This document shows, piece by piece, positions 5,700 to 42,121 of a stretch of DNA of 64,000 nt (within the stretch, counting starts at the first letter, position 1; every line of letters starts with the position of its first letter). Source of the DNA: Sinomonas notoginsengisoli (GTDB lineage: Bacteria > Actinomycetota > Actinomycetes > Actinomycetales > Micrococcaceae); assembly GCF_021554725.1 (NCBI RefSeq), contig NZ_JAIZDP010000002.1, forward strand, positions 124,001 to 188,000. The letters run 5' to 3'. Both the position numbers and the translations under genes were made by a program. The notes under the pieces are model-generated. The model did no database searches. It worked only from the letters and a program-made list of their open reading frames with translations, and was not told the origin of the DNA.

Positions 5700-6229
5700 A
5701 CGGTCCCCCCGTCAGTCAGCAGGTCATACCCCTCGACGCCCTCGGCATCGGCGCAGTCCTCGAGCAGCCCGACGATGGGGTGGCCCTCGAGGACCGCGAG
5801 CGGATCGATCATGACCCAGGGGAACAGCACGAAGGCGCGCTCCGCGGCGCGCGGGTGCGGGATCGTGAGCTCAGGGTCCTCGAGGCGGAGGGTGCCGTAC
5901 ACGATGATGTCCACATCGAGGGTGCGCGGGCCCCACCGGACGTCACGGGTGCGGTGGTGCTTGGCCTCGACGGCGTGGCAGTGCTCGAGGAGATCATAGG
6001 GGCCGAGCGTCGTCTCGACGATCATCACCATGTTGAGGAAGTCCGGCTGGCCTGAGGGACCGCCCACGGGCTTGGTCTGGACCACCGGCGAGACGTCGAC
6101 GAGGCGCACCTCCGGGCGGTCCACGAGATCCGCGACCGCGTCGGCCAACGTCTCGGCGCGGGCCCCAAGATTGCTGCCGAGGGCCAGGACCGCCCTGACC
6201 CAGTCGTGGTGCTCAGTCTCCACGGGCAC
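5696..6229 (-). CDS. folK: HPPK, 2-amino-4-hydroxy-6-hydroxymethyldihydropteridine diphosphokinase
   Basis: Transfers pyrophosphate from ATP to 6-hydroxymethyl-dihydropterin in folate synthesis. 177 residues. Family motifs are LALGSNLG near the start, PVVQTKPVGGPSGQPDFLNMV, and the signature RWGPRTLDVDIIVYG with two Asp for Mg, then IPHPRAAERAFVL. The GTG at 6229 overlaps folB by 17 nt; a second GTG two codons later is equally possible. It lies in the order folE-folP-folB-folK, so one transcript probably supplies the pterin branch. Confidence 0.95.
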   Translation of the reverse strand: MPVETEHHDWVRAVLALGSNLGARAETLADAVADLVDRPEVRLVDVSPVVQTKPVGGPSGQPDFLNMVMIVETTLGPYDLLEHCHAVEAKHHRTRDVRWGPRTLDVDIIVYGTLRLEDPELTIPHPRAAERAFVLFPWVMIDPLAVLEGHPIVGLLEDCADAEGVEGYDLLTDGGTV

Positions 6230-6599
6230 GCTCCCTGAAGACGGTCACGGACACGTCGGCAAACGGCACGGCGATGGGTGCCTCCGGCTTGTGCACCGTG
6301 AGCTCGACGGCGTCCACGGGGAACTCGGACAGGATCGCCTCGGCCAGGCGCACCGCGAGCGTCTCGATGAGGTCCACCGGCTCGCCCCCGATGATCCCTA
6401 CGATGCGCTCGGCCACTTCGGCGTAGCTCGCCGTCGCCGAGATGTTGTCCGAGGATGCGGCCTCGCCGAAGTCGGTGTGTAGGACCGCGTCGACCACGAA
6501 CGGCTGCCCCTCGCGCCGCTCGAAGTCCAGCACCCCATGGTGTCCGGTTGCCGAGACGCCGGTCAGGGTGATGCGGTCCGGATGGGTGCTCACTGTCAT
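6213..6599 (-). CDS. folB: Dihydroneopterin aldolase
   Basis: Cleaves 7,8-dihydroneopterin to 6-hydroxymethyl-dihydropterin and glycolaldehyde. 128 residues, a normal length. Motifs are ITLTGVSATGHHGVLDFERREGQ at the N-terminus and the conserved VDLIETLAVRLAEAIL segment, then VTVHKPEAPI-type C-terminal residues. The ATG is preceded by GGAGGG at good distance. A longer frame extends 34 codons upstream into the folP spacer, but its sequence is unlike the family. Confidence 0.95.
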   Translation of the reverse strand: MTVSTHPDRITLTGVSATGHHGVLDFERREGQPFVVDAVLHTDFGEAASSDNISATASYAEVAERIVGIIGGEPVDLIETLAVRLAEAILSEFPVDAVELTVHKPEAPIAVPFADVSVTVFRERARGD

Positions 6600-6628
6600 C
6601 CCGCCCTCCGGGGGACGCCCACGTCGTC

Positions 6629-7534
6629 CTAGGCCTTCGCCCTGGCGGCGACCTTGACGGCGTCGAGGTTCGCTACGACGTCGTGCACGCGGACACCCCA
6701 CGCCCCGGCCGCTGCCGCGAGCACCGTGATCGCAGCCGTGGCCCCATCGCGGGCCTGCGGCGGAGCCGCCTTCCCCGCGGTCATGAGGAGCTCGCCGATG
6801 AAGCGCTTGCGGGAGGCGGCCACGAGGACCGGGTAGCCGAGCCCGGTAAACCGGGCCATGTGCTTGACGAGCTCCCAGTTCTGCTCACCGTTCTTGGCGA
6901 ACCCAAGGCCCGGGTCGAGGATGATCCGTGCATCGCTCACGCCCCCGGCCCGCAGGCGGTCGCGCACCTGGAGCGTCTCGGCGATGACATCCTCGACCAC
7001 GTCCTCGTACGAGGCGAGCTTGTCCATCGACTTCGAGTCACCGCGATTGTGCATCAGCACGTAGTGCGCGTCGCGATCCGCGATGAGGCGGATCATCTCG
7101 TCGGTGACGGCGAGGCCAGAGACGTCATTGATGATCGAGGCCCCGGCGTCCAGCACCTTGGCCGCGGTGGTGGCCCGGCGGGTGTCAACGGAGACGAGGG
7201 CACCGGCCTTCACGAGCGCCTCGACTACGGGAAGGACGCGTTCCTGCTCGAGGTCCTCAGGCACCTCGGCGGCACCCGGACGCGTGGACTCGCCGCCCAC
7301 GTCGATGATGTCCGCCCCCGCATAGAGCATGCGCAGGCCCGCCGCGATCGCCGTGTCCGCACTCGCGTACGCGCCGCCATCGCTGAACGAGTCAGGCGTG
7401 ACGTTGAGGATGCCCATGACGACAGCACGGTCGCGGGGCAGGCCTTCGAAGGTAGCCCGCGCGCGCGGCCTGCGCAGCACCGGTAGGGGTGATGTGTTGG
7501 GCCCGGTTCCGGGCGCTGCTGCGAGAGAGTCCAT
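6629..7534 (-). CDS. folP: Dihydropteroate synthase
   Basis: Condenses hydroxymethyl-dihydropterin pyrophosphate with p-aminobenzoate; target of sulfonamides. About 301 residues. Motifs are MGILNVTPDSFSDGG, DIIDVGGESTRPG, IINDVSGL, LDPGLGFAKN and VLVAASRKRFIGEL, all intact. I chose the ATG with AAGGTGA about 8 nt before it; a GTG four codons earlier overlaps the folE stop (GTGA) and is an alternative. Third gene in the folate block. Confidence 0.95.
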   Translation of the reverse strand: MDSLAAAPGTGPNTSPLPVLRRPRARATFEGLPRDRAVVMGILNVTPDSFSDGGAYASADTAIAAGLRMLYAGADIIDVGGESTRPGAAEVPEDLEQERVLPVVEALVKAGALVSVDTRRATTAAKVLDAGASIINDVSGLAVTDEMIRLIADRDAHYVLMHNRGDSKSMDKLASYEDVVEDVIAETLQVRDRLRAGGVSDARIILDPGLGFAKNGEQNWELVKHMARFTGLGYPVLVAASRKRFIGELLMTAGKAAPPQARDGATAAITVLAAAAGAWGVRVHDVVANLDAVKVAARAKA

Positions 7535-13381: not shown

Positions 13382-14881
13382 TCAGCTTCGGCACCCGCAT
13401 CCCGCGAGGGCAGCAACACCTGAATCTATGGCCGCAATGGCCCGCTGGCGGGCGGCCGGGTCCACGCCGTTCGCCACGAGGGAGAACACGAGCAGCCGCC
13501 CGTCCACGTCCACGAGGTACCCGCTCAGCGCGGCCACCGTGTTGAGAGTTCCGGTCTTGGCGCGCACCACGCCGGCCCCGGCAGAGGCCGTACCCCCGAA
13601 CCGGCGGGCGAGCGTGCCGTCGAGCGCGGCGACCGGGAGCCCATCGAGGGCCGCGCGCAGCCGAGAGTCCGCCCCGGAGGTCATCGCGCGGACCACGCCG
13701 GCGAGAGCCGCAGGGGTCACGCGGTCCGCGATCGCGAGGCCACAGGCGTCGACGAGTACGAGGCCGTCCGAGCTGCCGAGGATTCGGCCCGCGGTGGCCT
13801 TGAGCGCTGACACGGCGCCATCGTTGCTCGCCGCGCCGCCGGCCGCATGGGACGCGAGCCGGCCGAGGGCCTCAGCACCGTAGTTGTCCGATTCACGGAG
13901 GACGTAGCCGGTCTGCTCGGCGATCGTCGCGCTCTCAACGGACGCGAGCTCGGCTGCGTTCGCCGGTGCCGCGGCCCGCTCGACCCCGGCCGCGACCTTC
14001 ATGCCGGAGGCGGCGAGCGCCCTGGCCAGTTCAGCGCGGAAGGCCGTGGCCGCCTCCATCGCCGAGTCCCGAGGCCGTGCGCCGGCTGCCCCCGGTGCGG
14101 AGCGGCCGGCGTTGAGCGCAAGCGCATAGAGGGGCGCGATCTCGCCGGCCTCGACGTCCTCAGGCGCCCAGGCCGGGTTGAGGGACGGGCCGGTGAACAG
14201 GGTGTCGTCGAGGCGTACCGTGACCGTGCCGTGGTCCGCGGCAGGTGAGGGACTGGCGCCCGGTGAGCCCGCGGCGTCGTGCGTCCCCGCGAGCGCGGCG
14301 GCAGTCTCGGAGGCGAGCGTTGCCATCCCTGCGCGCCCCATGACGGCTCCAGGCTGCGAGGCGCCCGCACCGAGCATGACGTCGCCGCTGCCCACGAGCA
14401 CCACCGTCCCCGGATCGGCCCCGCGCACCACCCGGGTGCGCAGCGTCGCATCCGGACCGAGCGTGGTGAGCACCGCCGCCGCCGTGAGGAGCTTCAGGTT
14501 CGATGCGGGCACCTGCGGCTCGTCGCCGGACTTCGAGTAGAGCGTCTGGCCGGTCGCGCCGTCGAGCACCGCCGCGGCGATGCTCCCGCTGCCGGGCGTG
14601 AGCCGCTGGTTGAGTTCCCGCGCGAGCGCGGACGCCGCTGGGACGGGGGCGGAGTCGGAGAGGGGCGTCGCACCCCCAATGGTCGGGGCGGACGACGGCG
14701 CAGTGAGCCACGCGGGGACCGTCGCCGTGGGCGTCGGGTGTGGGAAGAGGGCCGCCCGTGTGGCCGTCGCCGTGCCGGAGGAGACCATGGCGACGGCGAC
14801 CAGCACGCACACCACAAAGGCGGATGCGATCAGCGCCCCCAGGCCCCCCACGGGCGTGCGGCGGCCGCGCTCGGGGGTCAT
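13382..14881 (-). CDS. dacB: D-alanyl-D-alanine carboxypeptidase/endopeptidase (PBP4 type)
   Basis: Class C low-molecular-weight penicillin-binding protein that trims peptidoglycan peptides outside the membrane. 499 residues. A cytoplasmic start (about 1-12) is followed by a signal-anchor helix ([20 protein letters not shown]) and a Pro/Ser-rich linker. The SxxK motif is SNLK (127-130), the SxN motif is SDN in [15 protein letters not shown], and KTG is in [18 protein letters not shown]. First gene of the long minus-strand operon; its promoter must lie in the 163-bp gap shared with divergent ppa. Confidence 0.94.
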
Positions 14882-15044
14882 GGAGATCTCCGTCCTCGGG
14901 GTGTGGATGGCCTTGGCGCGGGGATCGAGGGCCCCCGGGGCAGATATCCTTCATGGTAGTCGCCGCCATAGCCCTGCCGTGCGCCGGGCCAGGCGGCCGC
15001 AGATTCGATGCCATCCCGCCCCGACGGGCCACGCAAGGAGCACT

Positions 15045-15533
15045 ATGAAGCACGATGTGACGATCGAGATCCCGCGCGGTTCGCGCGTCAAGTATGAGGT
15101 GGACCACGAGACGGGCCGCGTCCGCCTCGACCGCGTCCTCTTCACCTCGATGCAGTACCCCACCCACTACGGGTACTTCGAGAACACCCTCGGCGAGGAC
15201 GGCGACCCGCTCGACGCACTCGTCTGGTACCCGGACGTGGACCTCTTCCCCGGCATCGTCATGGAGGCCCGCCCGATCGCCATCTTCAACATGGAAGACG
15301 AGTCCGGCGGAGATGCCAAGCTCGTGTGCGTCCCGGCGGACAAGCGCTTCGACCACATCCAGGAGGCCTCTGACCTGGACGAGTGGCTCATCAAGGAGAT
15401 CGAGCACTTCTTCTCCCGGTACAAGGACCTCGAGCCGGGCAAGTGGGTCAAGCCCGCAGGCTGGGCCGACCGCGCAGCCGCCGAGACTGAGCTCGAGGCG
15501 TCCATCAAGCGCTTCGAGCAGCAGGGGCACTAG
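15045..15533 (+). CDS. ppa: Inorganic pyrophosphatase
   Basis: Soluble family I pyrophosphatase, hydrolysing PPi to phosphate. 162 residues. Motifs are [38 protein letters not shown] with the metal-binding Asp cluster, and the C-terminal [13 protein letters not shown]. The ATG has AAGGAG 4 nt upstream. Divergent from dacB; a strong hairpin follows it. Confidence 0.97.
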
Positions 15534-15570
15534 CAGGCACGCTCATCGAGGGTTTGGCCTTCATCGCTGA

Positions 15571-31371: not shown

Positions 31372-31484
31372 ATGTGTCTCCTCACGGCGGCCCGGCGGTC
31401 GCCTCCGAAAGAGGGAACACGCCGTCGTGCGCTCCCCTTCCCAGAGGGGACGGTGAGTTCCACCACATCCACGAGCGGGATGCC

Positions 31485-31513
31485 TTGACTAACGTGAGCC
31501 CGATCACTAGTCT
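31485..31513 (+). promoter_or_regulatory. Sigma-70-type promoter of the TetR-led catabolic cluster
   Basis: TTGACT (31485-31490) and TAGTCT (31508-31513) are separated by exactly 17 nt. The predicted start point, near 31520, falls at the left edge of a perfect palindrome, so a bound repressor would block transcription. Confidence 0.75.
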
Positions 31514-31518
31514 CAAGG

Positions 31519-31542
31519 GAGTGAATGAAGATTCATTCACTC
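31519..31542. promoter_or_regulatory. TetR operator: perfect 11-bp inverted repeat
   Basis: GAGTGAATGAA (31519-31529) and TTCATTCACTC (31532-31542) are exact complements with 2 nt between. It resembles the operator type TGAATGA-N-TCATTCA known for FadR-like TetR repressors of acyl-CoA catabolism in Bacillus. It lies at the predicted start point. Confidence 0.8.
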
Positions 31543-31569
31543 TGAATCCGGACTCATTATGGAGTGCAC

Positions 31570-32238
31570 ATGCAGACCAGCGAAGCCCGCATCGACGCCG
31601 CGGAGGCAGCACGCACCGCGCTCGTGGACTCCCGCAGGAGGCAGCTGCTCAATGCGGCCGCACGGCTCCTGGGCCGCGCTGGCTCCCAATCCGTGTCCAT
31701 GCAGAACGTCGCGGACGAGGCCGGTGTGAGCGTCGGGCTCATCTACCGGTACTTCGGCAACAAACAGGAGCTCGTGCAGGCGGTCATCGAAGACGTGCTG
31801 CATGAGTTCAGCGTCCGCGTCGCCGAACCCGTTCAGGACGAGGCCGACCCAGTCCGGCGCATCGCCGCAGCGTTCGCGGGCTACTGCTCCGTGGTGCAGG
31901 AGCTCCGGGACGCCGCCGTCCTCGCCTACCAGGAATCCAAGACGCTCGAACCTGAAGGCCGCGAGACCGTCAAGGACCTCGAGGTCGAAAGCGCTGAGCC
32001 CCTCATGGCCGCCACCCGCGAGGCGATCCACGCCGGCCTCCTCCGCGATGTGAATCCGCGCCTCTTCGCCTACGACCTCCTCACCACGGCTCATCTCTGG
32101 GCCCTCAAGCGCTGGTACTTCAGCCGCTTCATGACCCATGGGGAGTACGTGGCCCAGCACACCGCGCTCTCCCTCTCCTCGGTACTGCGGCCCGAACACC
32201 GCGCCGACTACGCAGACCTCCTCGGCCCCCTCGCCTGA
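31570..32238 (+). CDS. TetR/AcrR-family regulator of the acyl-CoA cluster
   Basis: 222 residues. The N-terminal helix-turn-helix (VADEAGVSVGLIYRYFGNKQELV, about 48-70) is followed by an all-helical ligand domain. The ATG at 31570 has GGAG 5 nt upstream; the GTG two codons earlier lacks a site. It lies 12 nt before the badI-like gene and behind its own promoter/operator. It probably represses the whole cluster and is released by an acyl- or cycloalkyl-CoA; the ligand is an inference. Confidence 0.9.
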   Translation: MQTSEARIDAAEAARTALVDSRRRQLLNAAARLLGRAGSQSVSMQNVADEAGVSVGLIYRYFGNKQELVQAVIEDVLHEFSVRVAEPVQDEADPVRRIAAAFAGYCSVVQELRDAAVLAYQESKTLEPEGRETVKDLEVESAEPLMAATREAIHAGLLRDVNPRLFAYDLLTTAHLWALKRWYFSRFMTHGEYVAQHTALSLSSVLRPEHRADYADLLGPLA

Positions 32239-32250
32239 AAGGACACCGCC

Positions 32251-33093
32251 ATGACTGACCAGACCACCGCCGTCAGCGCACCGACCGCCCCCGCGGTCCC
32301 AGCGTTCGAGGACATCATCTACGAGCGCCGCAACGCTGCGGCGGTCATCACCATCAACCGACCGGAGCGGTACAACGCCTTCCGCGGCAAGACCGTCGAC
32401 GAGCTCATCAAGGCCTTCCGCCTCGCGTGGGCCGACCGCGGAGTCCAGGCCGTCATCCTCACGGGCGCCGGCGAGAAGGCCTTCTGCACCGGCGGCGACG
32501 TCAAGCAGCGGGCCGAGACCGGCGACTACGGGCCCACCGAGTCCGGCATGTTCGAGATCGGGAACCTCCACAAGCTCATTCGGGACATCCCGAAGCCCGT
32601 CATCGCGGCCGTCAATGGCGTCGCGGTGGGCGGCGGGCACGTACTGCACGTCCTGTGCGACCTCACGATCGCGTCCTCGACCGCCCGCTTCGGGCAGGCC
32701 GGCCCCCGCGTCGGCTCGTTCGACGCCGGGTTCGGCTCGGCCTACCTCGCGAGGGTGGTCGGCGAGAAGCGAGCCCGCGAGATCTGGTACCTGTGCCGCC
32801 AGTACGACGCCGCGACCGCCGAGCGCTGGGGCCTCGCCAACGCGGTGGTCGAGCCGGAGCGTCTCATGGAGGAGGCGATGGCGTGGGCCGACGAGATCTC
32901 GGCGAAGAGCCCGACGGCGATCCGCTTCCTCAAGCAGTCCTTCAACGCGGACACCGACCACCAGGCCGGACTGAGCAATATGGCCATGTCCGCCCTCGAC
33001 CTGTTCGTGGCCTCGCCCGAGGGAATGGAGGGGGCGGCGGCCTTCGCCGAGAAACGCACGCCCGACTTCGCCAGCAAAGTCCAGTACCACTAG
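32251..33093 (+). CDS. badI: 2-ketocyclohexanecarboxyl-CoA hydrolase (BadI-like)
   Basis: Crotonase-fold enzyme predicted to add water and open the ring of 2-ketocyclohexanecarboxyl-CoA, giving pimelyl-CoA. 280 residues. YNAFRGKTVDELIKAF, AFCTGGDVKQ, GQAGPRVGSFDAGFGSAYLARVVGEKRAREIWYLCRQYD and DHQAGLSNM resemble BadI of Rhodopseudomonas from memory. The two Glu of true enoyl-CoA hydratases are absent, as in BadI and its homologue MenB. MenB is the main alternative, but no other menaquinone gene is near, whereas BadH-, AliA- and AliB-like genes follow. AAAGGA precedes the ATG. Confidence 0.82.
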   Translation: MTDQTTAVSAPTAPAVPAFEDIIYERRNAAAVITINRPERYNAFRGKTVDELIKAFRLAWADRGVQAVILTGAGEKAFCTGGDVKQRAETGDYGPTESGMFEIGNLHKLIRDIPKPVIAAVNGVAVGGGHVLHVLCDLTIASSTARFGQAGPRVGSFDAGFGSAYLARVVGEKRAREIWYLCRQYDAATAERWGLANAVVEPERLMEEAMAWADEISAKSPTAIRFLKQSFNADTDHQAGLSNMAMSALDLFVASPEGMEGAAAFAEKRTPDFASKVQYH

Positions 33094-33102
33094 GGGGCAG
33101 CC

Positions 33103-34248
33103 ATGGACTTCACGCTCACCGAACCACAGCAGCAGTTCATCAAGGAGGCCCGCGAGGTCGCCGCACAGATCGCGCCCGGCTACAAGCAGCGCGAAGCCGA
33201 GCGCCGCATCGAGCCGGAGGTGCGTCGCGAGATGGGCGCCCGGGGCCTCATCGCCCCCGAGCTTCCGGTCGAGCTCGGAGGCCGCGGGGAACAGCGCCTC
33301 ACGTCCGGCCTCATCACGGAGGAGATCGCCCGCGGCGACTTCAACGTCGCGTACGTCCAGGTGGTCGGCTCGCTCGTGGGCCAGATCCTCGCGGCCAACG
33401 CGGCCCCGGAGGTCGTGGCCAAATACGTCCCTCGCATCACGAGCGGCGAGGGCATCGTAGCGATCGGGCTCTCCGAGCCCAACGCGGGCTCAGACGCCGG
33501 CAGTCCCTCCCTCACGGCCCGCCGTGAGCGCGGCGGCTGGGTCCTCAACGGGACGAAGTCGATGTCCTTCGCCCTCCAGGCGGACGCCGCCGTGGTCTTC
33601 GCGAAGACGGATCCCGAGCAGGGTCGCGGCCGAGGCATCAGCGCCTTCGTCACTGACCTGCATGCCGACGGCGTGGAGCTCGAGGCCGTGGACGACATGG
33701 GCACGAAGGCCGTGACGCGGGGCTTCGCCCACTACACCGAGGCGTGGATCCCGGACGAGAACCTCCTCGGCGCCGAAGGCCAGGGCTTCACCCAGGTCAT
33801 GCACGGGTTCGACTTCTCGCGGGCACTCATCGGCCTGCAGTGCCTCGGAACCGCGGCCGTGACCGTCGAGGAGACGTGGGAGTACGTCAAGGGCCGAGAG
33901 GCCTTCGACAAGCCGCTGAGCACATTCCAGGGCGTCGCGTTCCCCCTCGCCGAGAGCGAGACGCTCCTCGCCGCAGCCCGCCTGCTCTGCCACCAGACGC
34001 TGTGGCTGAAGGACAACGGGCTGCCGCACACCGCCCAAGCCGCCATGTGCAAGTGGTGGGCGCCGAAGACGGCGTACGACGTCATCAACTCGTGCCTCCT
34101 CCTGCACGGCCAGTTCGGCTACCGCACGGACAAGCCGATCGAGCAGCGCCTCCGGGACGTCCTGGGCCTGCAGATCGGCGATGGAACCGCCCAGATCATG
34201 AAGATGATCATCGCCAGGAACATCGCGGGCCGCGCCTACGCGCCCTGA
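33103..34248 (+). CDS. aliB: Cyclohexanecarboxyl-CoA dehydrogenase-like acyl-CoA dehydrogenase (AliB type)
   Basis: 381-residue FAD-dependent acyl-CoA dehydrogenase, predicted to make cyclohex-1-ene-1-carboxyl-CoA. IGLSEPNAGSDAG is the flavin loop, then GWVLNGTKSMSFALQADAAVVFAKTD. The segment that normally reads YEGT reads IGDGT, so the catalytic-base position is Asp360 instead of Glu. Context with BadI- and BadH-like enzymes supports an alicyclic substrate. Starts 9 nt after the badI-like stop. Confidence 0.8.
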   Translation: MDFTLTEPQQQFIKEAREVAAQIAPGYKQREAERRIEPEVRREMGARGLIAPELPVELGGRGEQRLTSGLITEEIARGDFNVAYVQVVGSLVGQILAANAAPEVVAKYVPRITSGEGIVAIGLSEPNAGSDAGSPSLTARRERGGWVLNGTKSMSFALQADAAVVFAKTDPEQGRGRGISAFVTDLHADGVELEAVDDMGTKAVTRGFAHYTEAWIPDENLLGAEGQGFTQVMHGFDFSRALIGLQCLGTAAVTVEETWEYVKGREAFDKPLSTFQGVAFPLAESETLLAAARLLCHQTLWLKDNGLPHTAQAAMCKWWAPKTAYDVINSCLLLHGQFGYRTDKPIEQRLRDVLGLQIGDGTAQIMKMIIARNIAGRAYAP

Positions 34249-34275
34249 GCCCCCGCACCCATTCAAAGGAGAACC

Positions 34276-35022
34276 ATGGGAAAGCTCGAGAACAAGATCG
34301 CGATCGTCACGGGCGGTGCCTCCGGCATCGGGAAGGGCATCGCCACCAAACTCGCAGCGGAGGGCGCCACCGTCGTCGTGAGCGACCTCAACGAGCCCGC
34401 CGCGAAGGAGACCGCGGCAGCGCTCGGCAACCGGTCGATCGGCGTGCGCACCGACGTCACGGCGCGCGAGTCCGTCGACGAGATGATCCGGTCCGTGAAG
34501 GAGGAATTTGGCCGCATCGATGTCCTCGTGAACAACGCAGGCTGGGACAAGGTCGGCCCGTTCGTGGACAGCGAGGTCGCAGACTGGGACCGCGTCGTCG
34601 CGATCAACCTCTACGGGACGCTGCACTGCAGCCAGGCGTTCCTGCGTGCCGCGGAGGGCCAGGAACGGGCGGCGATCGTGAACATCGCGTCCGACGCCGG
34701 CCGGGTCGGCTCCTCGGGCGAGGCCGTCTACTCCGCCGCGAAGGGCGGCATCATCTCGTTCAGCAAGACCCTTGCCCGCGAGACCGCCCGCCAGGGATTC
34801 ACCGTGAACTGCGTGTCCCCTGGCCCCGCCGATACGCCGCTGTTCGCAGGGATCAGCGCCGAGAACCCCAAGCTGCGGGCGGCCCTTGAGAAGGCCATCC
34901 CGCTGCGCCGCCTGGCGCAGCCCGAGGACCTCGCCAACGCCGTCGCGTTCCTCGCCTCGGACGAGGCGGCGTACATCACCGGCCAGACCCTCTCGGTCTC
35001 CGGCGGACTCACGATGGCGTGA
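34276..35022 (+). CDS. badH: 2-hydroxycyclohexanecarboxyl-CoA dehydrogenase-like SDR (BadH type)
   Basis: 248-residue short-chain dehydrogenase predicted to oxidise 2-hydroxycyclohexanecarboxyl-CoA to the 2-keto form with NAD. TGGASGIG is at 12-19 and NNAG at 86-89. The catalytic residues Ser139, Tyr152 and Lys156 are all present (NIASD, GEAVYSAAKGG). NNAGWDKVGPF and ASDAGRVGSSGEAVY closely resemble BadH of Rhodopseudomonas from memory. Ends TGQTLSVSGGLTM, as BadH does. Confidence 0.85.
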   Translation: MGKLENKIAIVTGGASGIGKGIATKLAAEGATVVVSDLNEPAAKETAAALGNRSIGVRTDVTARESVDEMIRSVKEEFGRIDVLVNNAGWDKVGPFVDSEVADWDRVVAINLYGTLHCSQAFLRAAEGQERAAIVNIASDAGRVGSSGEAVYSAAKGGIISFSKTLARETARQGFTVNCVSPGPADTPLFAGISAENPKLRAALEKAIPLRRLAQPEDLANAVAFLASDEAAYITGQTLSVSGGLTMA

Positions 35023-35060
35023 GCCGGATCCCCTCCCCGACTAGCCGAACGGACCCCACC

Positions 35061-36725
35061 ATGAGCTCGCCCTTCGAGATGCTCCCGCTTCCCGCGGACG
35101 CGGACGACTTCAGGACCCACGGGTACTGGAGGGACCGCCTCCTCATCGACTACTTCGACGACGCCGTCGCTGCGGATCCGGGCAAGGTCGCCTCGATCGA
35201 CTCCTCCGGCGCGACGACCTATGGCCAGATGGCGCAAGAAGTCGAGGCCGTCGCCGCCGGCCTCCTCGACCTCGGGGTGGAGGCCGGTGACACCGTGTCG
35301 ATCCAGCTCTCGAACCGGCACGAGTGGATTGTGGCGCACCTCGCCGTCGAGCGCGTAGGCGCGGTCACCAACGCGCTCATCCCGATCTACCGCGACCGCG
35401 AGATCGAGTACATGGCCGCGAAGGCGCGCGCCAAGGTCATCTTCATCCCGGACACGTTCCGAAACTTCGACTACGCGGCGATGATCGGACGGCTGCGCGC
35501 TTCGCTGCCCGAACTGCGCCACGCCGTCGTGCTCGGAACGCCCCCCGCGCAGGAGCGAGGCCTCTTCCTCTCATGGGCGGACCTCGCCGAGCGCGGCCGC
35601 GCACGCGGCATCTCCGCGGAAGAGGTGGTGGCGCGGCGCCCGTCCCCGGACGATCTCGCGCTCATCATGTTCACGTCCGGGACAACGGGCCGGCCCAAGG
35701 GCGTCATGCACAGCCACAACTCTGTGCTCTCTGGCGCGCTGCCATGGCCCGACCGGCTCGGGATGGGCACTGACTCGGTGATCCACATGGCCTCGACGTT
35801 CGGCCACCTCACCGGGTACCTCTTCGGCGTCGCGCTGCCGATCATGCTCGGCGGGACGGCCGTTTTCCAGGAGGTCTGGAAGGCCGCAGAGTTCGTCGAG
35901 CTAGTCGAGAAGCACGGCATCCAGCACACCTCCGGCGCCACGCCGTTCCTCCAGGACATCCTCACCGCGCCGAACCTGGCCGACCACGACGTCTCGAGCC
36001 TCGCCCGGTTCTGCTGCATGGGCGCCCCGATCCCCCGGGCAGTCCTCCACGCCGCGAAGGAGAAGCTCCCCAGTCTGAACGTGTTCGGCGGCTGGGGCCA
36101 GACCGAGTGCTGTCTCGTGACAATGGGCAGCCCGGCGGACCCGGTAGAGAAGGTCCTCGACTCGGACGGCCGGGTGCTGCCGGGAATGAAGCTGCGCATC
36201 GTGGACTATGACGGCACTGCAGCCCCCGCCGGAACCGAGGGCAGGATCCAGATCCATGGCTCTTTCCTCTTCCGCGGCTACCTCGAACAGCTCGACGCGA
36301 CGCTCAACGAGTTCGACGGCGAGTGGTTCGACACCGGCGACCTCGGCACGCAGGACGAGGACTCCTACGTCCGGCTTGCGGGCCGGACAAAGGACATCAT
36401 CATGCGCGGCGGCGAGAACGTCCCCGTCGCCTACGTGGAGAACGTCCTCTACGAGCACCCGCGGATCGCGGCCGTCGCGCTCGTGGCAGTCCCCCATCCT
36501 CGCCTCCAGGAGATCGGCGGCGCGGTGGTGCAGCTCAAGGACTCGGACCCGTTCACACTCGACGACCTCAAGGTCTTCCTCGAGGCCAAAGGCCTCGCGA
36601 AGCCGTACTGGCCGGAGATCCTCAAGGTCGTTGATGAGCTGCCCAGGACGCCCAGCGGGAAGATCCAGAAATTCAAGATCCGGCAGGAACTGTCGGTGGA
36701 GTCCAAGCAGGAGGCACAGGCGTGA
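35061..36725 (+). CDS. aliA: Acyl-CoA synthetase, probable cyclohexanecarboxylate-CoA ligase (AliA type)
   Basis: 554-residue AMP-forming ligase that would activate the alicyclic acid as its CoA thioester. The P-loop is IMFTSGTTGRPKGVMHSH, then GGWGQTECCL (A5), FDTGDLGTQDEDSYVRLAGRTKDIIMRGGENV (A7-A8 hinge) and the C-terminal Lys in PRTPSGKIQKFKI. I chose the ATG at 35061; a GTG at 35019 overlaps the badH-like stop (GTGA) and would add 14 residues. The ring-acid substrate is inferred from neighbours. Confidence 0.85.
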   Translation: MSSPFEMLPLPADADDFRTHGYWRDRLLIDYFDDAVAADPGKVASIDSSGATTYGQMAQEVEAVAAGLLDLGVEAGDTVSIQLSNRHEWIVAHLAVERVGAVTNALIPIYRDREIEYMAAKARAKVIFIPDTFRNFDYAAMIGRLRASLPELRHAVVLGTPPAQERGLFLSWADLAERGRARGISAEEVVARRPSPDDLALIMFTSGTTGRPKGVMHSHNSVLSGALPWPDRLGMGTDSVIHMASTFGHLTGYLFGVALPIMLGGTAVFQEVWKAAEFVELVEKHGIQHTSGATPFLQDILTAPNLADHDVSSLARFCCMGAPIPRAVLHAAKEKLPSLNVFGGWGQTECCLVTMGSPADPVEKVLDSDGRVLPGMKLRIVDYDGTAAPAGTEGRIQIHGSFLFRGYLEQLDATLNEFDGEWFDTGDLGTQDEDSYVRLAGRTKDIIMRGGENVPVAYVENVLYEHPRIAAVALVAVPHPRLQEIGGAVVQLKDSDPFTLDDLKVFLEAKGLAKPYWPEILKVVDELPRTPSGKIQKFKIRQELSVESKQEAQA

Positions 36726-37942
36726 CCGTCAACAGCACCGGCTCGGTCTTCGGGCCCGCCGACCTCACGGGCCTCGACGGCCAGCTCAACGCCGAGGAGA
36801 AGGACCTCGCCCTCGCGGTACGTGGTCTCGTCGACGAACACATCCGCCCGAACATCGCGGGCTGGTATGAGAAGGCCGTCTTCCCGAAGGAGATCATCCC
36901 CGAGCTTGCCGAGCTCCGCCTGCTCGGCATGCACCTGAAGGGCTACGGCTGTGCCGGACGCTCCGCGGTGATGTATGGGCTCGCCGCCTCCGAGCTCGAG
37001 GCCGGCGACTCCGGGCTGCGCACGTTCGTCTCCGTCCAGGGCTCGCTCGCGATGTCCGCGATCCACAAGCACGGCTCCGAGGAGCAGAAGCAGCGCTGGC
37101 TGCCCGAGATGGCGGCGGGACGGGCTGTCGGCTGCTTCGGGCTCACGGAGCCGACGGCGGGCTCGGACCCGGCCTCGATGCGCACCACCGCCGTGCAGGA
37201 GCCCGGCGGGGACTGGGTGCTCAACGGCGCGAAGCGGTGGATCGGCCTTGCCGCGATCGCCGACGTCGCGATCATCTGGGCGCAGACCGCCGAGCACGGC
37301 GATGCACGGGGCGTCCGCGGGTTCGTGGTCCCCACCGATACCGCGGGATTCAAGGCGGAGGCGATCGAGCCCAAGCTGTCGATGCGCGCCTCGGTGCAGT
37401 GCGACATCACGCTCGAGGACGTCAGGCTTCCGGCCGACGCGATCCTCCCCGCGGAGAGCGCGATTGGCCTCAAGGGCCCGTTCTCGTGCCTCAACGAGGC
37501 CCGCTACGGGATCATCTGGGGCGTCATGGGTGCGGCCCGGGACAGCTTCGAGGAAGTGCTGCGCTACAGCTCCGAGCGGACCCAGTTCGGCCGCCCGCTC
37601 TCCGCCTTCCAGCTGACCCAGGCCAAGCTGGCGGACATGTCGCTTGAGATCACAAAGGGCTACCTCCTGGCGCTCCAGATCGGCCGGGCGAAGGACGCGG
37701 GCAACCTCACCCCGACTATGATCTCGGTGGGCAAGCTCAACAACTGCCGCGAGGCCATCAAGATCGCCCGCGACGCGCGGGAGATGCTCGGCGGCAACGG
37801 CATCACACTCGACCATTCGCCCCTGCGGCACGCTAACAACCTCGAGTCGGTGCGCACCTACGAGGGCACCGACGAAGTCCATCAGCTCATTTTGGGCCGC
37901 GCGCTCACGGGTGTCGGCGCGTTCCAGGCCGCGGGGAGGTAA
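36722..37942 (+). CDS. gcdH: Glutaryl-CoA dehydrogenase
   Basis: 406-residue flavoprotein that oxidises and decarboxylates glutaryl-CoA to crotonyl-CoA. GCFGLTEPTAGSDPASM, WVLNGAKRWIGLAAIADVAIIWAQT, SMRASVQCDI and LNEARYGIIWGVMGAARDS are typical of the GcdH subgroup. The catalytic base is Glu381 (TYEGTDEVH). Arg100 (GLRTFVSVQ) sits where the substrate-carboxylate-binding Arg of GcdH is expected. The GTG start overlaps the ligase stop. It fits the end of pimelyl-CoA breakdown. Confidence 0.9.
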   Translation: MTVNSTGSVFGPADLTGLDGQLNAEEKDLALAVRGLVDEHIRPNIAGWYEKAVFPKEIIPELAELRLLGMHLKGYGCAGRSAVMYGLAASELEAGDSGLRTFVSVQGSLAMSAIHKHGSEEQKQRWLPEMAAGRAVGCFGLTEPTAGSDPASMRTTAVQEPGGDWVLNGAKRWIGLAAIADVAIIWAQTAEHGDARGVRGFVVPTDTAGFKAEAIEPKLSMRASVQCDITLEDVRLPADAILPAESAIGLKGPFSCLNEARYGIIWGVMGAARDSFEEVLRYSSERTQFGRPLSAFQLTQAKLADMSLEITKGYLLALQIGRAKDAGNLTPTMISVGKLNNCREAIKIARDAREMLGGNGITLDHSPLRHANNLESVRTYEGTDEVHQLILGRALTGVGAFQAAGR

Positions 37943-37946
37943 CGCG

Positions 37947-38741
37947 GTGGAAACGACCTCCGAGACGATCACCACGTCGATCAGCGCGACGGGCACTGGC
38001 GCCATCGGGACCATCACCATCAACCGGCCCGAGGTCCGCAACGCCCTCTCGAAGACCGTCCTCGCCGAGATCGGCGCGGTCCTCGACTCGTGGGAGGACG
38101 ATCCCGCTGTCGGTGCCATCGTGTTCACCGGCGCCGGCGAGAAGGCGTTCGTGGCCGGTGCGGACATCAGCCAACTCGCCGGCTACGACCTCGCGTACGG
38201 CCTCGCAGCACACATGCAGAAGCTCTACGACCGCATCGAGGACTACCCGAAGCCCACCATCGCGGCGATCAACGGCGTGGCGATGGGCGGCGGCCTCGAG
38301 CTCGCCATGAGCTGCGACATCCGCATCGCGGCCGACGGCGCGCGGATGGGCCTACCCGAGGCCACCCTCGGCGTCCTCCCGGGCGCCGGCGGGACGCAGC
38401 GCCTCACGCGTCTGGTCGGCACCGGCCGCGCCGTCGAGATGATCCTCACGAGCCGGGTACTGACGGCGGCCGAGGCCGAGCGCTACGGGCTCGTGACCGC
38501 CGTCGTACATCGCGAGGAGCTCGAGGCGACCGCCGCCGCGACTGCCGCGACGATCCTGTCGAAGGGCCCACTCGCGGTGCGGCTCGGCAAAATTGTGATC
38601 CGCCAGGGCGCCGAAACGGACCAGAAGACCGGCCTCCTGCTCGAGCGGCTCGCGCAGACGCTCCTGTACACGACCGAAGACAAGGCCGAGGGCGCCGCGG
38701 CGTTCCTTGCGAAGCGCACGCCAGAATTCGCGGGACGGTGA
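37947..38741 (+). CDS. Enoyl-CoA hydratase, candidate cyclohex-1-ene-carboxyl-CoA hydratase (BadK role)
   Basis: 264-residue crotonase. Both catalytic Glu are present, in GGGLELAMSCDIRIA and GLPEATLGVLPGAGGTQRLTR, so it should hydrate a 2-enoyl-CoA. It could serve the ring step (BadK), the linear pimelyl steps, or both. The GTG has GGAGG 7 nt upstream, 4 nt after the gcdH stop; the stop overlaps the next gene (GTGA). Confidence 0.85.
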   Translation: METTSETITTSISATGTGAIGTITINRPEVRNALSKTVLAEIGAVLDSWEDDPAVGAIVFTGAGEKAFVAGADISQLAGYDLAYGLAAHMQKLYDRIEDYPKPTIAAINGVAMGGGLELAMSCDIRIAADGARMGLPEATLGVLPGAGGTQRLTRLVGTGRAVEMILTSRVLTAAEAERYGLVTAVVHREELEATAAATAATILSKGPLAVRLGKIVIRQGAETDQKTGLLLERLAQTLLYTTEDKAEGAAAFLAKRTPEFAGR

Positions 38742-39604
38742 TTGGGGTGGATGTGCGGAAGATCCTCGTGGTCGGCTCGGGCGCCATGGGCCGGCAGATC
38801 GGTATGGCAGCGGCCGTTGCGGGATTCACGACGGCGGTGCGCGACCTGAGCGCCGACGCCGTCGCCGCTGCCGAGGCGGACATGCGGCGCTGGCTCGATG
38901 GACGGGTCGCGAAGGGCCGGCTCACCGAGGCGGACGCCGCGGAGGCGGGGGAGCGCCTGACGTTCACCACGGACCTCACGGGCGCTGCGGCGGACGCGGA
39001 CCTCGTAATCGAGGCCGCCACGGAGCGGCTTGACATCAAGCGGGCCATCTTCGCCGAGCTCGACGAGCTCGCCCCGGCCCACGCGATCCTCGCGACAAAC
39101 TCCTCGACCCTGGCCTCCTCGACGGTTGCGGACGCGACCGACCGGCCCGAGAAGGTCTGCAACATGCACTTCTTCAACCCGGCGCTCGTGATGAAGGCCG
39201 TGGAAATCGTGCGGAACCCGCAGACCTCGGACGAGACCGTTGCGACGGTCATCGGCGTGGCCCGTGCGATGGGCAAATCCCCGGTGCTCCTGAACAGGGA
39301 GATTCCGGGGTTCGTGGCGAACCGGCTGATGGGGGCGGTTCGCGACGAGGCCCTGGCCCTGTACGCCGCAGGCGTCGCCTCGCTCGAGGACATCGACACC
39401 GCGGCCAAGGACGCGCTCGGGTACCCGATGGGCCCGTTCGAGCTCATGGACCTCGTGGGCCTCGACGTCACGTACCTCATCCGCCAAGCCGCCTACGCCC
39501 AGACCGGGGACGAGAAGGACCTTCCCCACCCGCTGATCACCGCCAAGTACGAGGCCGGCCAGTTCGGCCGCAAGACCGGGAAGGGCTGGTACACGTATGG
39601 ATGA
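38738..39604 (+). CDS. 3-hydroxyacyl-CoA dehydrogenase
   Basis: 288-residue NAD enzyme of the 3HCDH family. The Rossmann loop is GSGAMGRQI, catalytic His is in NMHFFNPALVMKAVEIV, and the C-terminal dimer domain has EIPGFVANRLMGAVRDEALALYAAGVA. It would oxidise 3-hydroxypimelyl-CoA or 3-hydroxybutyryl-CoA. The GTG overlaps the crotonase stop; two later in-frame GTG codons are alternatives. Its stop overlaps the next gene by 8 nt. Confidence 0.9.
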   Translation: MIGVDVRKILVVGSGAMGRQIGMAAAVAGFTTAVRDLSADAVAAAEADMRRWLDGRVAKGRLTEADAAEAGERLTFTTDLTGAAADADLVIEAATERLDIKRAIFAELDELAPAHAILATNSSTLASSTVADATDRPEKVCNMHFFNPALVMKAVEIVRNPQTSDETVATVIGVARAMGKSPVLLNREIPGFVANRLMGAVRDEALALYAAGVASLEDIDTAAKDALGYPMGPFELMDLVGLDVTYLIRQAAYAQTGDEKDLPHPLITAKYEAGQFGRKTGKGWYTYG

Positions 39605-40868
39605 GCTGCTCGACGCCGGGCCAGGAACCGGCTTCGCCGAGACGGACGAGTACCTCGCGGCGCTCCGCGAGCGCCTCACCGTTCCGCGGGACACGGACTA
39701 CATGCTCCTCGGCGAGAACCTCCCGGCGGACGCCGCAGACGCGCGGGCCCGTATGCGCGCGTTCGTGGACGCAAAGGTGCTGCCGGTGATCAACGGGTAC
39801 TGGGAGCGCGCCGAATTCCCGTGGGAGCTCCTGCCGCACCTCGCCGCGACCGGCCTCGTCGGCGGCGTCATCAAGGGCCACGGCGCCGCGGGCCTCTCGC
39901 GACTCGCCGCGGGGCTGGCCACCGCGGAACTAGCGCGCGGCGACGGGTCGGTCAACACATTCCTGGGCGTCCAGGCCAACCTGACCATGGGCACCATCAA
40001 CCTCCTCGGCTCTCAGGAGCAGAAGGACCGCTGGCTGCCCGGCATGGTGCGCCTGGAGAAGGTCGGCGCGTTCGCGCTCACCGAGCCACGGCACGGCTCC
40101 GATTCCGCGCACCTCGAGACGACCGCGCGCCGCGAGGGCGACTCATGGGTGATCAACGGCGCCAAGCGGTGGATCGGCAACGGCTCGATGGCCCATCTCG
40201 TAGTGATCTGGGCCCGCGACGAGGCGGACGGCGAGGTCAAGGCCTTCGTCATGGAGCGCGAGGACCCGCGCGACCCGAAGAGCCTGCCCGCGGGCTTCTC
40301 CGCGCGCACCATCGACGGGAAGGTCGGCAAGCGCGCCATCCTCCAGGCTGATCTCGCCTTCGACAACCTGCGCGTCCCGGACGCCAACCGGCTCCCGGAG
40401 GCGAACAGCTTCCGCGACACGAGCCGCGTGCTCGCGACGACGCGCGGCGGAGCGAGCTGGGAGGCCCTCGGGCATGGGATCGCGTGCTTCGAGGCGGCCG
40501 TCGCATACACGGAGATCCGCGAGCAGTTCGGTCAGCCCGTCGCGAACTACCAGCTGGTCCAGGCCACGCTCGCATCGATGCTCTCGGAGCTCACGGCCAT
40601 GCAGCTCCTGTGCTTCCGCACGGCAGAGCTGCAGGAGGCCGGCACGTGGAGCGGAACGATGGCTTCGATCGCGAAGATGCACACGTCGAACAAGGCCCGC
40701 ACCATCGCCCAGCAGGCCCGTGACCTCCTCGGCGGCAATGGCCTGCTCCTCGACTTCCACGTGGCCCGGCACCTCACGGACATGGAGGTGGTGCACACGT
40801 ACGAGGGGACGGAGTTCGTCCAGTCGCTCCTCATCGGGCGCAAGGTCACCGGGAAGTCGGCATTCTGA
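39597..40868 (+). CDS. Second GcdH-like acyl-CoA dehydrogenase
   Basis: 423 residues. FALTEPRHGSDSAHLETTA, VINGAKRWIGNGSMAHLVVIWARD and the base motif HTYEGTEFVQ place it near glutaryl-CoA dehydrogenases. At the position of the substrate-carboxylate Arg it has Asn120 (GSVNTFLGVQ), so its substrate probably lacks that carboxylate or is held differently. It might act on a ring or medium-chain acyl-CoA of this pathway. The ATG overlaps the upstream stop and the TGA overlaps the next ATG (TGATG). Confidence 0.82.
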   Translation: MDELLDAGPGTGFAETDEYLAALRERLTVPRDTDYMLLGENLPADAADARARMRAFVDAKVLPVINGYWERAEFPWELLPHLAATGLVGGVIKGHGAAGLSRLAAGLATAELARGDGSVNTFLGVQANLTMGTINLLGSQEQKDRWLPGMVRLEKVGAFALTEPRHGSDSAHLETTARREGDSWVINGAKRWIGNGSMAHLVVIWARDEADGEVKAFVMEREDPRDPKSLPAGFSARTIDGKVGKRAILQADLAFDNLRVPDANRLPEANSFRDTSRVLATTRGGASWEALGHGIACFEAAVAYTEIREQFGQPVANYQLVQATLASMLSELTAMQLLCFRTAELQEAGTWSGTMASIAKMHTSNKARTIAQQARDLLGGNGLLLDFHVARHLTDMEVVHTYEGTEFVQSLLIGRKVTGKSAF

Positions 40869-41638
40869 TGGGAACCTTCGAGGGCCGGCGCGTCCTGCTC
40901 GTGGGCACCGGCGGGATTGGCGCCGCGGTCGCGGGGCGGCTCGCGGGCGAGGGCGCGCGCGTCTTCGGCACGTACCGCTCCGATCACGACGGCGCCGCCG
41001 CCCTCGGTGCCCTGCTCCCTGCCGGCTCGTGGGCGGGTTCCGCACCGCTCGACGCCGCAGATCCCCAGTCCGCGCACGACGTCGCGGGGCCGGCCGGGAG
41101 GGCCGCCGCCGCCCTCGGGGGACTCGACACCCTCGTGGTCACCACCGGCCACCGCCACCCGCTCGCGCTCTTGACGGCCACCGCACCGGACACTCTCGAA
41201 GACATCGTCCGCACCGAACTGCTTGGCCCCCTGCTGCTCGTGCGGGCAGTGCTCCCGGGCATGCTCGAGGCGGGCTTCGGACGGATCGTCCTGGTGGGGT
41301 CAGACAGCGGCAAGGCGGGCACCCTCGGCGACGCCGCGTCGTCGTCCGCCCGGGCCGGACTGCACGGGCTCGTACGTGCAGTCGCCCGCGAGACGGCCCG
41401 GAAGGACGTGACCATCAACGTGGTCTCCCCCGGCCCCACCGACACCGGGCTCCTCGAGGGCATGCTCGCCGCCGACGGCCTCACCGGGAAGGTCATGGCC
41501 GGGACGGTCAAGGCCGTGCCGAAGGGCCGGGCGGCGCGCCCCGAGGAGATCGCCGCGGCGGTCGCGTACCTCGCCTCCACCGACGCCGGATTTACGACGG
41601 GCCAGGTCCTGTCCGTGTCCGGCGGCCTCACGATGTAG
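40868..41638 (+). CDS. Degenerate short-chain dehydrogenase lacking Tyr and Lys
   Basis: 256-residue SDR-fold protein. The nucleotide loop is shortened (GTGGIGAAVAG), the NNAG motif is VVTTGH, Ser145 is kept (VGSDS), but the YxxxK motif reads SSSAR, with Ser158 for Tyr and Arg162 for Lys. The tail VSPGPTDTGLLEG and GFTTGQVLSVSGGLTM match BadH-type SDRs, so it looks like a diverged paralogue of the 34276 gene. It is unlikely to be a normal dehydrogenase; it could be a binding subunit or do other chemistry. Coupled at both ends. Confidence 0.8.
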   Translation: MGTFEGRRVLLVGTGGIGAAVAGRLAGEGARVFGTYRSDHDGAAALGALLPAGSWAGSAPLDAADPQSAHDVAGPAGRAAAALGGLDTLVVTTGHRHPLALLTATAPDTLEDIVRTELLGPLLLVRAVLPGMLEAGFGRIVLVGSDSGKAGTLGDAASSSARAGLHGLVRAVARETARKDVTINVVSPGPTDTGLLEGMLAADGLTGKVMAGTVKAVPKGRAARPEEIAAAVAYLASTDAGFTTGQVLSVSGGLTM

Positions 41639-41652
41639 ACCCAGGAGACCCA

Positions 41653-42078
41653 TTGGACGCCGCACCCTTCGACCCGACCCGGGTCACGACCTTCCGCAAG
41701 ACGGTCACGGAGACCGACCTCGTGCTGTTCGCCGGCATCACCGGTGACTTCGCGAGCAACCACACCGACGAGGAGTACATGCGGGGCACCCCGTTCGGGA
41801 CGCGCCAGGTCCACGGGGCGCTCCTCGTCGGGTTCATGTCCGCCGTCGCGGCGCGGGCGCTCGAGGACGCGCGGCCCGCGGGGCTCACGCCGGTCTCCCT
41901 CGGCTACGACCGCATCCGCTTCATCCGGCCCGTATTTCCAGGCCAGACCCTCGCGCTGCGCCACGAGTGGGCGGACTACGATGCGGACGCCGGGCGGGCC
42001 ACAGCGGACGTCGAGTTGCGCGCGGACGGCGAGGTGACCGCCGTGGCCCGCCACGTGGTCAAGTGGGTTCGGGGATAA
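41653..42078 (+). CDS. MaoC-like hydratase
   Basis: 141-residue hot-dog protein with the R-hydratase motif in FAGITGDFASNHTDEEYMRGTPFG (catalytic Asp and His). The TTG start has AGGAG 6 nt upstream. Last enzyme of the cluster. It may hydrate an enoyl-CoA of the pathway, giving a second option beside the crotonase. Confidence 0.85.
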   Translation: MDAAPFDPTRVTTFRKTVTETDLVLFAGITGDFASNHTDEEYMRGTPFGTRQVHGALLVGFMSAVAARALEDARPAGLTPVSLGYDRIRFIRPVFPGQTLALRHEWADYDADAGRATADVELRADGEVTAVARHVVKWVRG

Positions 42079-42121
42079 AATATCCCCCGACCCGCCCACT
42101 CCGCCGCTCGAAAGGCGCCCC

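Follow-up and report, generated by a model that had tools for sequence, protein, structure and literature searches.

Ring acids of the naphthenic type count among the pollutants of hydrocarbon deposits. The closest described systems for their coenzyme A (CoA)-dependent breakdown are the bad-ali genes of Rhodopseudomonas palustris and Aromatoleum sp. CIB, which are joined to a lower pathway for pimelyl-CoA (aab) (PMC9795900), and the chcpca cluster of Rhodococcus aetherivorans BCP1, which is reported in PMC5906575 to be induced on cyclohexanecarboxylate (CHC) and on cyclopentanecarboxylate and to have the order badI-badH-aliA-gcd-aliB-tetR (its Table 2). Here we describe a related eleven-gene operon in a stretch of 64,000 nucleotides (the window) from Sinomonas notoginsengisoli (contig NZ_JAIZDP010000002.1). 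We put at about three in four the probability that this operon is laterally mobile, is repressed by its TetR and serves the catabolism of a saturated carboxylic acid with a ring, CHC or a close analogue being the most likely substrate. It very probably degrades a six-membered-ring acid by the known CoA route, as an actinobacterial version of bad-ali that is linked to a module for dicarboxylyl-CoA and glutaryl-CoA. The pathway itself is not new, since the BCP1 cluster has already been reported to be induced by CHC. What is new here is the accessory cassette that holds the operon, the palindrome before tetR, a clade of BadI proteins with an altered active site, and a conserved pseudo-enzyme of the short-chain dehydrogenase/reductase (SDR) type, SDR2, with the tetrad E-S-S-R. 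The altered active site of the actinobacterial BadI and the uniform, selected pseudo-SDR are the unexpected parts, and no prior description of either was found in the open-access literature searched.

Like chcpca, the operon unites badI, badH, aliA, a glutaryl-CoA dehydrogenase gene (gcd), aliB and a TetR gene in one aerobic actinobacterial cluster. Compared with chcpca, it adds a 3-hydroxyacyl-CoA dehydrogenase (HAD), a second acyl-CoA dehydrogenase (ACAD2), the pseudo-SDR and MaoC, has its crotonase within the run, and differs in gene order and in having a single TetR gene, which lies upstream. With the bad-ali genes it shares AliA, AliB, BadH and BadI homologues and the link to a pimelyl-CoA lower pathway; in contrast to them, it has a TetR rather than a MarR regulator, as do other Gram-positives (PMC9795900), a different BadI active site, no separate badK, an added pseudo-SDR, and scores below the equivalog level. 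The statement in the earlier note that the cluster equals the Rhodopseudomonas route was therefore too strong, the more so as a thiolase gene is also missing; an aerobic actinobacterial version is, moreover, already in print (PMC5906575 and PMC9795900).

Gene content and predicted route

Reading of the open reading frames of the window places the operon in eleven open plus-strand genes, from TetR to MaoC (31564-42078), of a 3.59 Mb genome. The junctions are overlaps of 1-8 bases or gaps of 4-27 bases; with 37911 as its start, the crotonase gene would have an overlap of 32 bases. These coordinates bear out the eleven same-strand genes, overlapping or a few bases apart, of the earlier note, and the end of the range that it gave (31485-42078), but not its start, which precedes that of the TetR gene; the gene families that it had named, the degenerate SDR included, were recovered in profile searches and alignments. 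The order TetR-badI-aliB-badH-aliA-gcd-crotonase-HAD-ACAD-SDR-MaoC is complete in six of 20 loci examined in relatives (L031-L036, of which L031 and L033 come from near-identical strains), and the first ten genes follow in the same order in three more (L037-L039), so the arrangement is not due to chance. Two further loci (L048 and L049) have nine cluster genes, the SDR2 and MaoC matches being absent also from re-reads of 18 kb (L140 and L141), and another (L040) consists of TetR-BadI-AliB-BadH-AliA-Crot-SDR2. L041 holds SDR2 alone and L042 remnants of the cluster, and the other six are different loci.

The homologues of AliA, AliB, BadH and BadI all lie together in this one operon, and the best NCBIfam matches of three of them are the CHC models: TIGR03207 for AliB (477 bits; cut-off 575), TIGR03206 for BadH (300 bits; cut-off 431) and TIGR03208 for AliA (504 bits; cut-off 792). 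The stretches IGDGTAQ and FDFSRALIGLQ are common to the AliB of the window and that of Rhodopseudomonas. The GDGT aspartate is present in 48 of 49 relatives at an identity of at least 38%, the 49th not being readable there; among the 49 is the AliB of Rhodopseudomonas pseudopalustris (51% identical), which shares FDFSRALIGLQ. Gcd matches glutaryl-CoA dehydrogenases in the PDB at E 6e-149 and keeps E87, R94, Y369 and E370 of human GCDH, with S95 replaced by T. The best PDB match of ACAD2 is ACX4. Its alignments to 2eba and 3sf6, transferred to the human frame, show Ala where GCDH has E87 and Asn where it has R94, and ACAD2 is hence not a glutaryl-CoA dehydrogenase.

On this basis, AliA would convert the ring acid into its CoA ester, which AliB would desaturate; after hydration by the crotonase, BadH would oxidise the alcohol, and the BadI-like protein would open the 2-ketocyclohexane ring to give pimelyl-CoA. 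The steps from pimelyl-CoA to glutaryl-CoA would fall to ACAD2 or a different acyl-CoA dehydrogenase, to the crotonase and HAD, and to a thiolase whose gene lies outside the operon. Gcd would decarboxylate glutaryl-CoA to crotonyl-CoA, and the crotonase, HAD and thiolase would complete the conversion to acetyl-CoA. SDR2 would most plausibly take part in the BadH/BadI steps as a partner that is non-catalytic or has been re-purposed. The crotonase is a candidate for hydration at the BadK, pimelyl and crotonyl stages; a second crotonase (badK) is absent from the operon, as badK is from many published clusters (PMC9795900). A genome of another family of the same class (G588, locus L197) contains the run BadI-AliB-BadH-AliA-thiolase-Crot-HAD-ACAD-Gcd, and the thiolase between AliA and the crotonase exceeds the pcaF equivalog cut-off (609 vs 597 bits). 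The presence of a PcaF-type thiolase in this gene run supports a dicarboxylyl-CoA stage after ring opening. A CoA-dependent alicyclic route coupled to glutaryl-CoA degradation, as the earlier note had proposed, is thus supported by the best-scoring models of AliB, AliA and BadH, the AliB stretches, the Gcd residues and the thiolase of this relative.

The existence of a Sinomonas species named for growth on the ring acid had also been taken as support. Sinomonas (Corynebacterium) cyclohexanicum shares the genus and the putative substrate with the window, but its CHC route, as reported in PMC9795900, is a different one, in which an oxygenase and aromatization lead via 4-hydroxybenzoate, and the argument is therefore of no help. 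No ChcB2 above the cut-off is present in the genome studied here (best 233 vs 350 bits).

Cassette, distribution and putative operator

The nitroreductase-family and NCS2 genes that flank the operon are directly adjacent, leaving the site empty, in 12 of 15 same-genus genomes. The cassette stands between them in the window genome, G197 and G226, which do not represent three independent events, since G197 and G226 are very alike. Homology to six same-genus empty sites stops at 31403 (five sites) or 31371 (one) and restarts at 42080-42101, and the next gene, that of the NCS2 permease at 42122, lies outside the cassette. In two genomes (G061 and G104) the flanks are joined and the cassette is found at another place. 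BadH, AliB and SDR2 are all present in five and all absent in ten of the 15 genomes, with weak generic SDR matches in G162 and G186 and a 40% BadH-like match in G175 not scored as present. On this empty-site evidence, the segment is an accessory cassette and probably laterally mobile; no transposase or integrase gene is among the eleven operon genes. Near full-length SDR2 homologues of at least 47% identity occur in 12 of 295 genomes of the family, the one studied here included. A truncated SDR2 of 188 amino acids in G196 belongs to a cluster remnant (L042, G196:C8:455000-472000, ~5100-6100) together with a 43-residue BadI fragment that is 86% identical to the BadI of the window.

Parts of the cluster were also seen apart from the rest. 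Three loci (L044, L045 and L047, in G072, G020 and G109) contain an AliB-BadH pair, 66-73% and 61-65% identical, in which the tetrad Asn of BadH is replaced by Ser; searched with the badI model at E 1e-50, these genomes give a MenB-type protein as their sole match. A plasmid of Mycobacterium dioxanotrophicus (L193) carries a BadI-BadH pair (13992-15534), 82% and 50% identical to those of the window, a short way downstream of genes for alcohol/aldehyde dehydrogenase and groEL.

The perfect palindrome upstream of tetR (Table 1) is the sole match to itself in the window at up to three mismatches, with 0.03 expected. The best match near tetR in 15 other loci, for which ~500 bases around the tetR start were compared, has no mismatch in four loci, one in three, two in two, three in three and four in three. 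In seven of the 15 there is thus at most one mismatch, and the palindrome is kept in close relatives; the matches in the other eight (2-4 mismatches) are not clearly above chance, because L140, L196 and L197 hold equally good ones elsewhere in the locus. TetR probably represses its own operon at this palindrome, from which an acyl-CoA would release it. The sequence resembles the FadR-type acyl-CoA repressor box, which makes acyl-CoA-relieved repression the likely mode. A scan for sigma-70 promoters and terminators gave nothing above chance.

Table 1. Features of the cassette, in window coordinates, with the basis of each assignment.
Feature	Coordinates	Strand	Basis or remark
Whole accessory cassette, tetR to maoC, ~10.7 kb	31404..42080	+	Between nitroreductase-family gene and NCS2 permease gene
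Perfect palindrome TGAATGAAGATTCATTCA, putative TetR operator	31522..31539	.	24 bases before TetR start, inside cassette
TetR-family regulator	31564..32238 (start GTG 31564 or ATG 31570)	+	PF00440 and PF17932 over cut-off
BadI-like crotonase-fold hydrolase, 2-ketocyclohexanecarboxyl-CoA hydrolase-like, altered active site	32251..33093	+	TIGR03210, tree
AliB-like cyclohexanecarboxyl-CoA dehydrogenase	33103..34248	+	TIGR03207, GDGT aspartate
BadH-like 2-hydroxycyclohexanecarboxyl-CoA dehydrogenase, N-S-Y-K intact	34276..35022	+	TIGR03206, alignment
AliA-like cyclohexanecarboxylate-CoA ligase	35019..36725	+	TIGR03208, PF00501
Glutaryl-CoA dehydrogenase (Gcd), decarboxylating type	36722..37942	+	PDB matches, aligned residues
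Enoyl-CoA hydratase (crotonase)	37911..38741 (start may be 37947)	+	PF00378; NCBIfam enoyl-CoA hydratases, below cut-off
3-Hydroxyacyl-CoA dehydrogenase (HAD)	38738..39604	+	PF02737 and PF00725
Second acyl-CoA dehydrogenase (ACAD2), GCDH/ACX4-like, not glutaryl-CoA dehydrogenase	39597..40868	+	PDB alignments
Pseudo-SDR (SDR2), BadH family, tetrad E117-S145-S158-R162	40868..41638	+	Alignments, tree, dN/dS
MaoC-like hydratase	41653..42078 (most likely TTG start; no start codon at 41635)	+	PF01575, 62.9 bits

The pseudo-SDR of the BadH family

SDR2 and BadH share 36% identity, and the best NCBIfam match of SDR2 is the BadH model (165 of 431 bits, far below the cut-off). Instead of the classical SDR tetrad N-S-Y-K it has E-S-S-R, and so do all 13 Micrococcaceae homologues, that of the window included (L031-L042, with L042 truncated), which retain the fold motifs and the TGQxxSVSGGLTM end. 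A scan of genome contigs yielded 80 loci, 72 with N-S-Y-K and eight with E-S-S/T-R, namely L051-L054 (the same clusters or their kin), metagenome-assembled genomes of Micrococcales (L055), Polaromonas (L057) and Pseudomonadota (L117, the one with T), and Pollutimonas (L056). Among 394 class-level genomes, with six candidates scored in each, 36 have an SDR2 match at E 1e-58; for 29 of the 41 class-level matches outside the own genome, the tetrad is E-S-S-R in one (L254), N-S-Y-K in 26 and not readable in two. No SDR2 was found on plasmids at E 1e-30. In a tree built from 76 of 145 collected rows, the 14 motif-bearing ones, four distant members of which had been picked by the motif, come together as a single clade within the BadH family (SH-aLRT 94). 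The dN/dS values of SDR2 between the window and L031, L034, L035 and L036 are 0.14, 0.14, 0.17 and 0.20, all of them inside the span of values of the remaining genes of the operon, and that of the L040/L041 pair is 0.079 (0.0518/0.658); SDR2 is under purifying selection. The predicted structure has a mean pLDDT of 78.7, with residues 190-220 below 50. Its fold matches, among the 50 listed, are FabG-type and other SDRs, and a PDB profile search gave FabG-like chains and no BbsC among the matches listed (60 of 596).

The closest precedent for SDR2, apparently of separate origin, is BbsC, the inactive subunit of the hetero-tetrameric SDR BbsCD of anaerobic toluene degradation (cited in PMC10818641). 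In both cases a catalytically degenerate SDR stands beside an active one in an operon for acyl-CoA oxidation, but BbsC pairs with BbsD and has the tetrad GDVR, whereas the SDR2 clade lies inside the BadH family and has E-S-S-R. The tree joins BbsC of Aromatoleum toluolicum to the BbsD of that organism (83, long branch), outside the SDR2 clade, and on tetrad and tree, the latter with long branches, SDR2 is rejected as an orthologue of BbsC.

It is nevertheless a real, though rather doubtful, possibility that SDR2, like BbsC, is a subunit without catalytic function and assembles with BadH into a hetero-oligomer. The uniform tetrad with retained fold motifs and C-terminal end, the origin from the BadH family, and the finding that SDR2, BadH and AliB are present or absent as a set in each of the 15 same-genus genomes would agree with this role, as would the published BbsCD precedent and the finding that BbsD (7PCS chain) is the sixth-best solved sequence for BadH. 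Against it stand, apart from the separate (long) branch and different tetrad of BbsC, genomes in which one gene occurs without the other. In G082 and G059, nine cluster genes are present, BadH among them, but SDR2 is absent from the 18 kb read, and the best genome match to SDR2 is BadH itself. Conversely, G266 has an intact SDR2 (L041, G266:C11:299000-316000, 5976-6755) and no BadH or AliB match in its genome. This orphan lies between a membrane transporter-like and an EfeU-like gene (both named from sequence, without a family search), which flank the whole cluster in G005, and it argues against a role purely as a partner of BadH, unless the loss is recent. The match of the SDR2 C-terminus to that of BadH does not discriminate as proof of pairing, since another SDR of the genome ties with it (22/32 each), and no report of a pseudo-SDR hetero-tetramer was found in the open-access literature.

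Alternatively, and only tentatively, SDR2 may have gained a new, non-redox activity, with E117, S145, S147, K149 and R162 as the new site. An alignment of 11 rows from Micrococcaceae, other Micrococcales and Pseudomonadota has E117, S145, D146, S147 and R162 invariant and K149 and S158 nearly so, a degree of conservation not required of a subunit with a purely structural role; four distant rows were chosen by E-S-S/T-R, so that these positions are partly circular, S147 and K149 not being among them. The dN/dS of 0.08 between the G266 orphan and the G005 copy also fits this view, as does the sequence HRH at 95-97, which is invariant in 12 close homologues but lost in distant members. However, there is no reaction to propose, and the orphaning in G266 could be recent. 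That SDR2 is a decaying, functionless BadH duplicate is very unlikely, because the loss of the catalytic residues and the truncation of the G196 copy beside a BadI remnant, which is decay in one genome, are outweighed by the dN/dS values against four relatives, which speak against a decaying pseudogene, and by the uniformity of the residues that replace them.

An acyl-CoA type gene run around an E-S-S-R gene was met again in Pollutimonas nitritireducens (L056, 6257-12788), with genes for an AMP-dependent CoA ligase, an SDR, an acyl-CoA dehydrogenase, the pseudo-SDR, an arylmalonate decarboxylase/EutA-like protein and a thiolase-domain protein; the other SDR of this run is 35% identical to BadH, and its best model is of the glucose 1-dehydrogenase type.

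The BadI-like protein and the nature of the ring acid

The BadI-like protein falls in an actinobacterial clade of 14 rows with an SH-aLRT of 100. The tree comprises 53 crotonase-type proteins, taken from 110 rows that had been collected, and carries long-branch warnings. The other BadI rows do not make up one clade, since four of the 20 (L076, L085, L091 and L103) group nearer MenB (support 92). The 14 actinobacterial, 20 other BadI and 12 MenB-type rows were aligned, leaving out the divergent L179. The 12 are E. coli MenB, nine MenB-type matches of actinobacterial genomes, and L046 and L178, which group with them; the two of the 12 that were checked against the MenB models, L184 and L178, both pass. 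Asp163, Ser161, Lys89, Arg91 and Tyr97 (E. coli MenB numbering) are still present in all 14 rows of the clade, and Thr155 of MenB is absent from the BadI-like protein. Nine further BadI matches outside the tree (L193-L200 and L202, 59-82% identical) show that the loss of Tyr258 is wider than that of Gln88, since eight of them lack Tyr258, L200 (59%) being the one that keeps it, and Gln88 is kept in five. Tyr258 is catalytic in MenB and BadI.

Several observations weigh against assigning the operon to CHC. Only two columns, Gln88 and Tyr258, are invariant in all 32 other BadI and MenB rows and never so in the clade, where Gln88 is replaced by Val in 14 of 14 rows and Tyr258 by Val (seven), Thr (four) or Ala (three); the protein of the window has Val at both. 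None of AliA, AliB, BadH and BadI reaches its equivalog cut-off, and the BadI-like protein scores slightly better to the MenB models (346 and 330 bits; cut-offs 380 and 343) than to badI (TIGR03210; 327 bits, cut-off 467.6), all below cut-off. The outcome that the earlier note had named as contrary to the route, best matches to MenB and ordinary SDRs, is therefore found in the scores of BadI but not in those of BadH, while the tree and a second MenB in the genome speak against MenB; the model search that it had suggested thus favoured CHC enzymes for AliB, BadH and AliA, all below cut-off, and MenB for BadI. Furthermore, ACAD2 lacks the glutarate-binding Arg, and the operon of the window has neither a dedicated 3-oxodicarboxylyl-CoA thiolase nor any other thiolase. 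There are 12 Thiolase_N matches elsewhere in the genome, and of the three scanned with NCBIfam, a PcaF-like one on another contig is below the pcaF cut-off (405 vs 597 bits). Finally, G598 (L196) has the gene order of the BCP1 cluster and a BadI that is 78% identical to that of the window, with Val88 and Thr258, but the protein at its aliB position is only 30% identical to the AliB of the window.

The loss of two otherwise invariant residues suggests that either the mechanism of ring opening is another one or the substrate is different. The second option would leave the type of pathway unchanged: the natural substrate might be a ring acid that carries substituents (alkyl- or carboxy-cyclohexane), has another ring size (cyclopentane) or derives from terpenoids, and for which the BadI site has been changed. 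This we consider unlikely, yet worth keeping in mind, as both residues are lost throughout the clade while K89, R91 and Y97 still agree with E. coli MenB, a CHC route leaves MaoC and ACAD2 unexplained, and the BCP1 cluster is induced by both CHC and cyclopentanecarboxylate (PMC5906575). By contrast, the AliB stretches that are the same as in Rhodopseudomonas AliB, and Gcd together with the PcaF-type module of a relative, which fits a C7 dicarboxylate, favour CHC or a close analogue. That the BadI-like protein is the menaquinone enzyme MenB itself is extremely improbable, since the slightly higher MenB scores, and the MenB/naphthoate synthase names of all ten solved sequences at E 1e-40, are set against scores under both MenB cut-offs, the missing Tyr258 and Thr155, and a separate protein of the genome (C31:7574) that exceeds these cut-offs (556 vs 378 and 386 vs 343 bits) and clusters with the MenBs of the same family; tree and separate protein together speak against this identity.

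It may tentatively be proposed that the actinobacterial BadI opens the alicyclic ring without the Tyr and Gln kept in the other BadI and MenB proteins compared and that, in a subset, the BadH-derived E-S-S-R pseudo-dehydrogenase has become a second obligate partner, evolved independently, or else a novel enzyme in the CoA-dependent ring-cleavage complex, carried on a mobile catabolic cassette. Among the accessible papers, expression evidence for an aerobic actinobacterial CoA route comes from one Rhodococcus cluster, and the compact, mobile version in the Micrococcaceae, with its natural pairs of strains with and without it, makes the function testable. The clade of BadI proteins without Tyr calls into question the transfer of the 'BadI' label to Actinobacteria, and the E-S-S-R pseudo-SDR would be the second case, beside BbsC, of a catalytically degenerate SDR that is kept in an acyl-CoA pathway.

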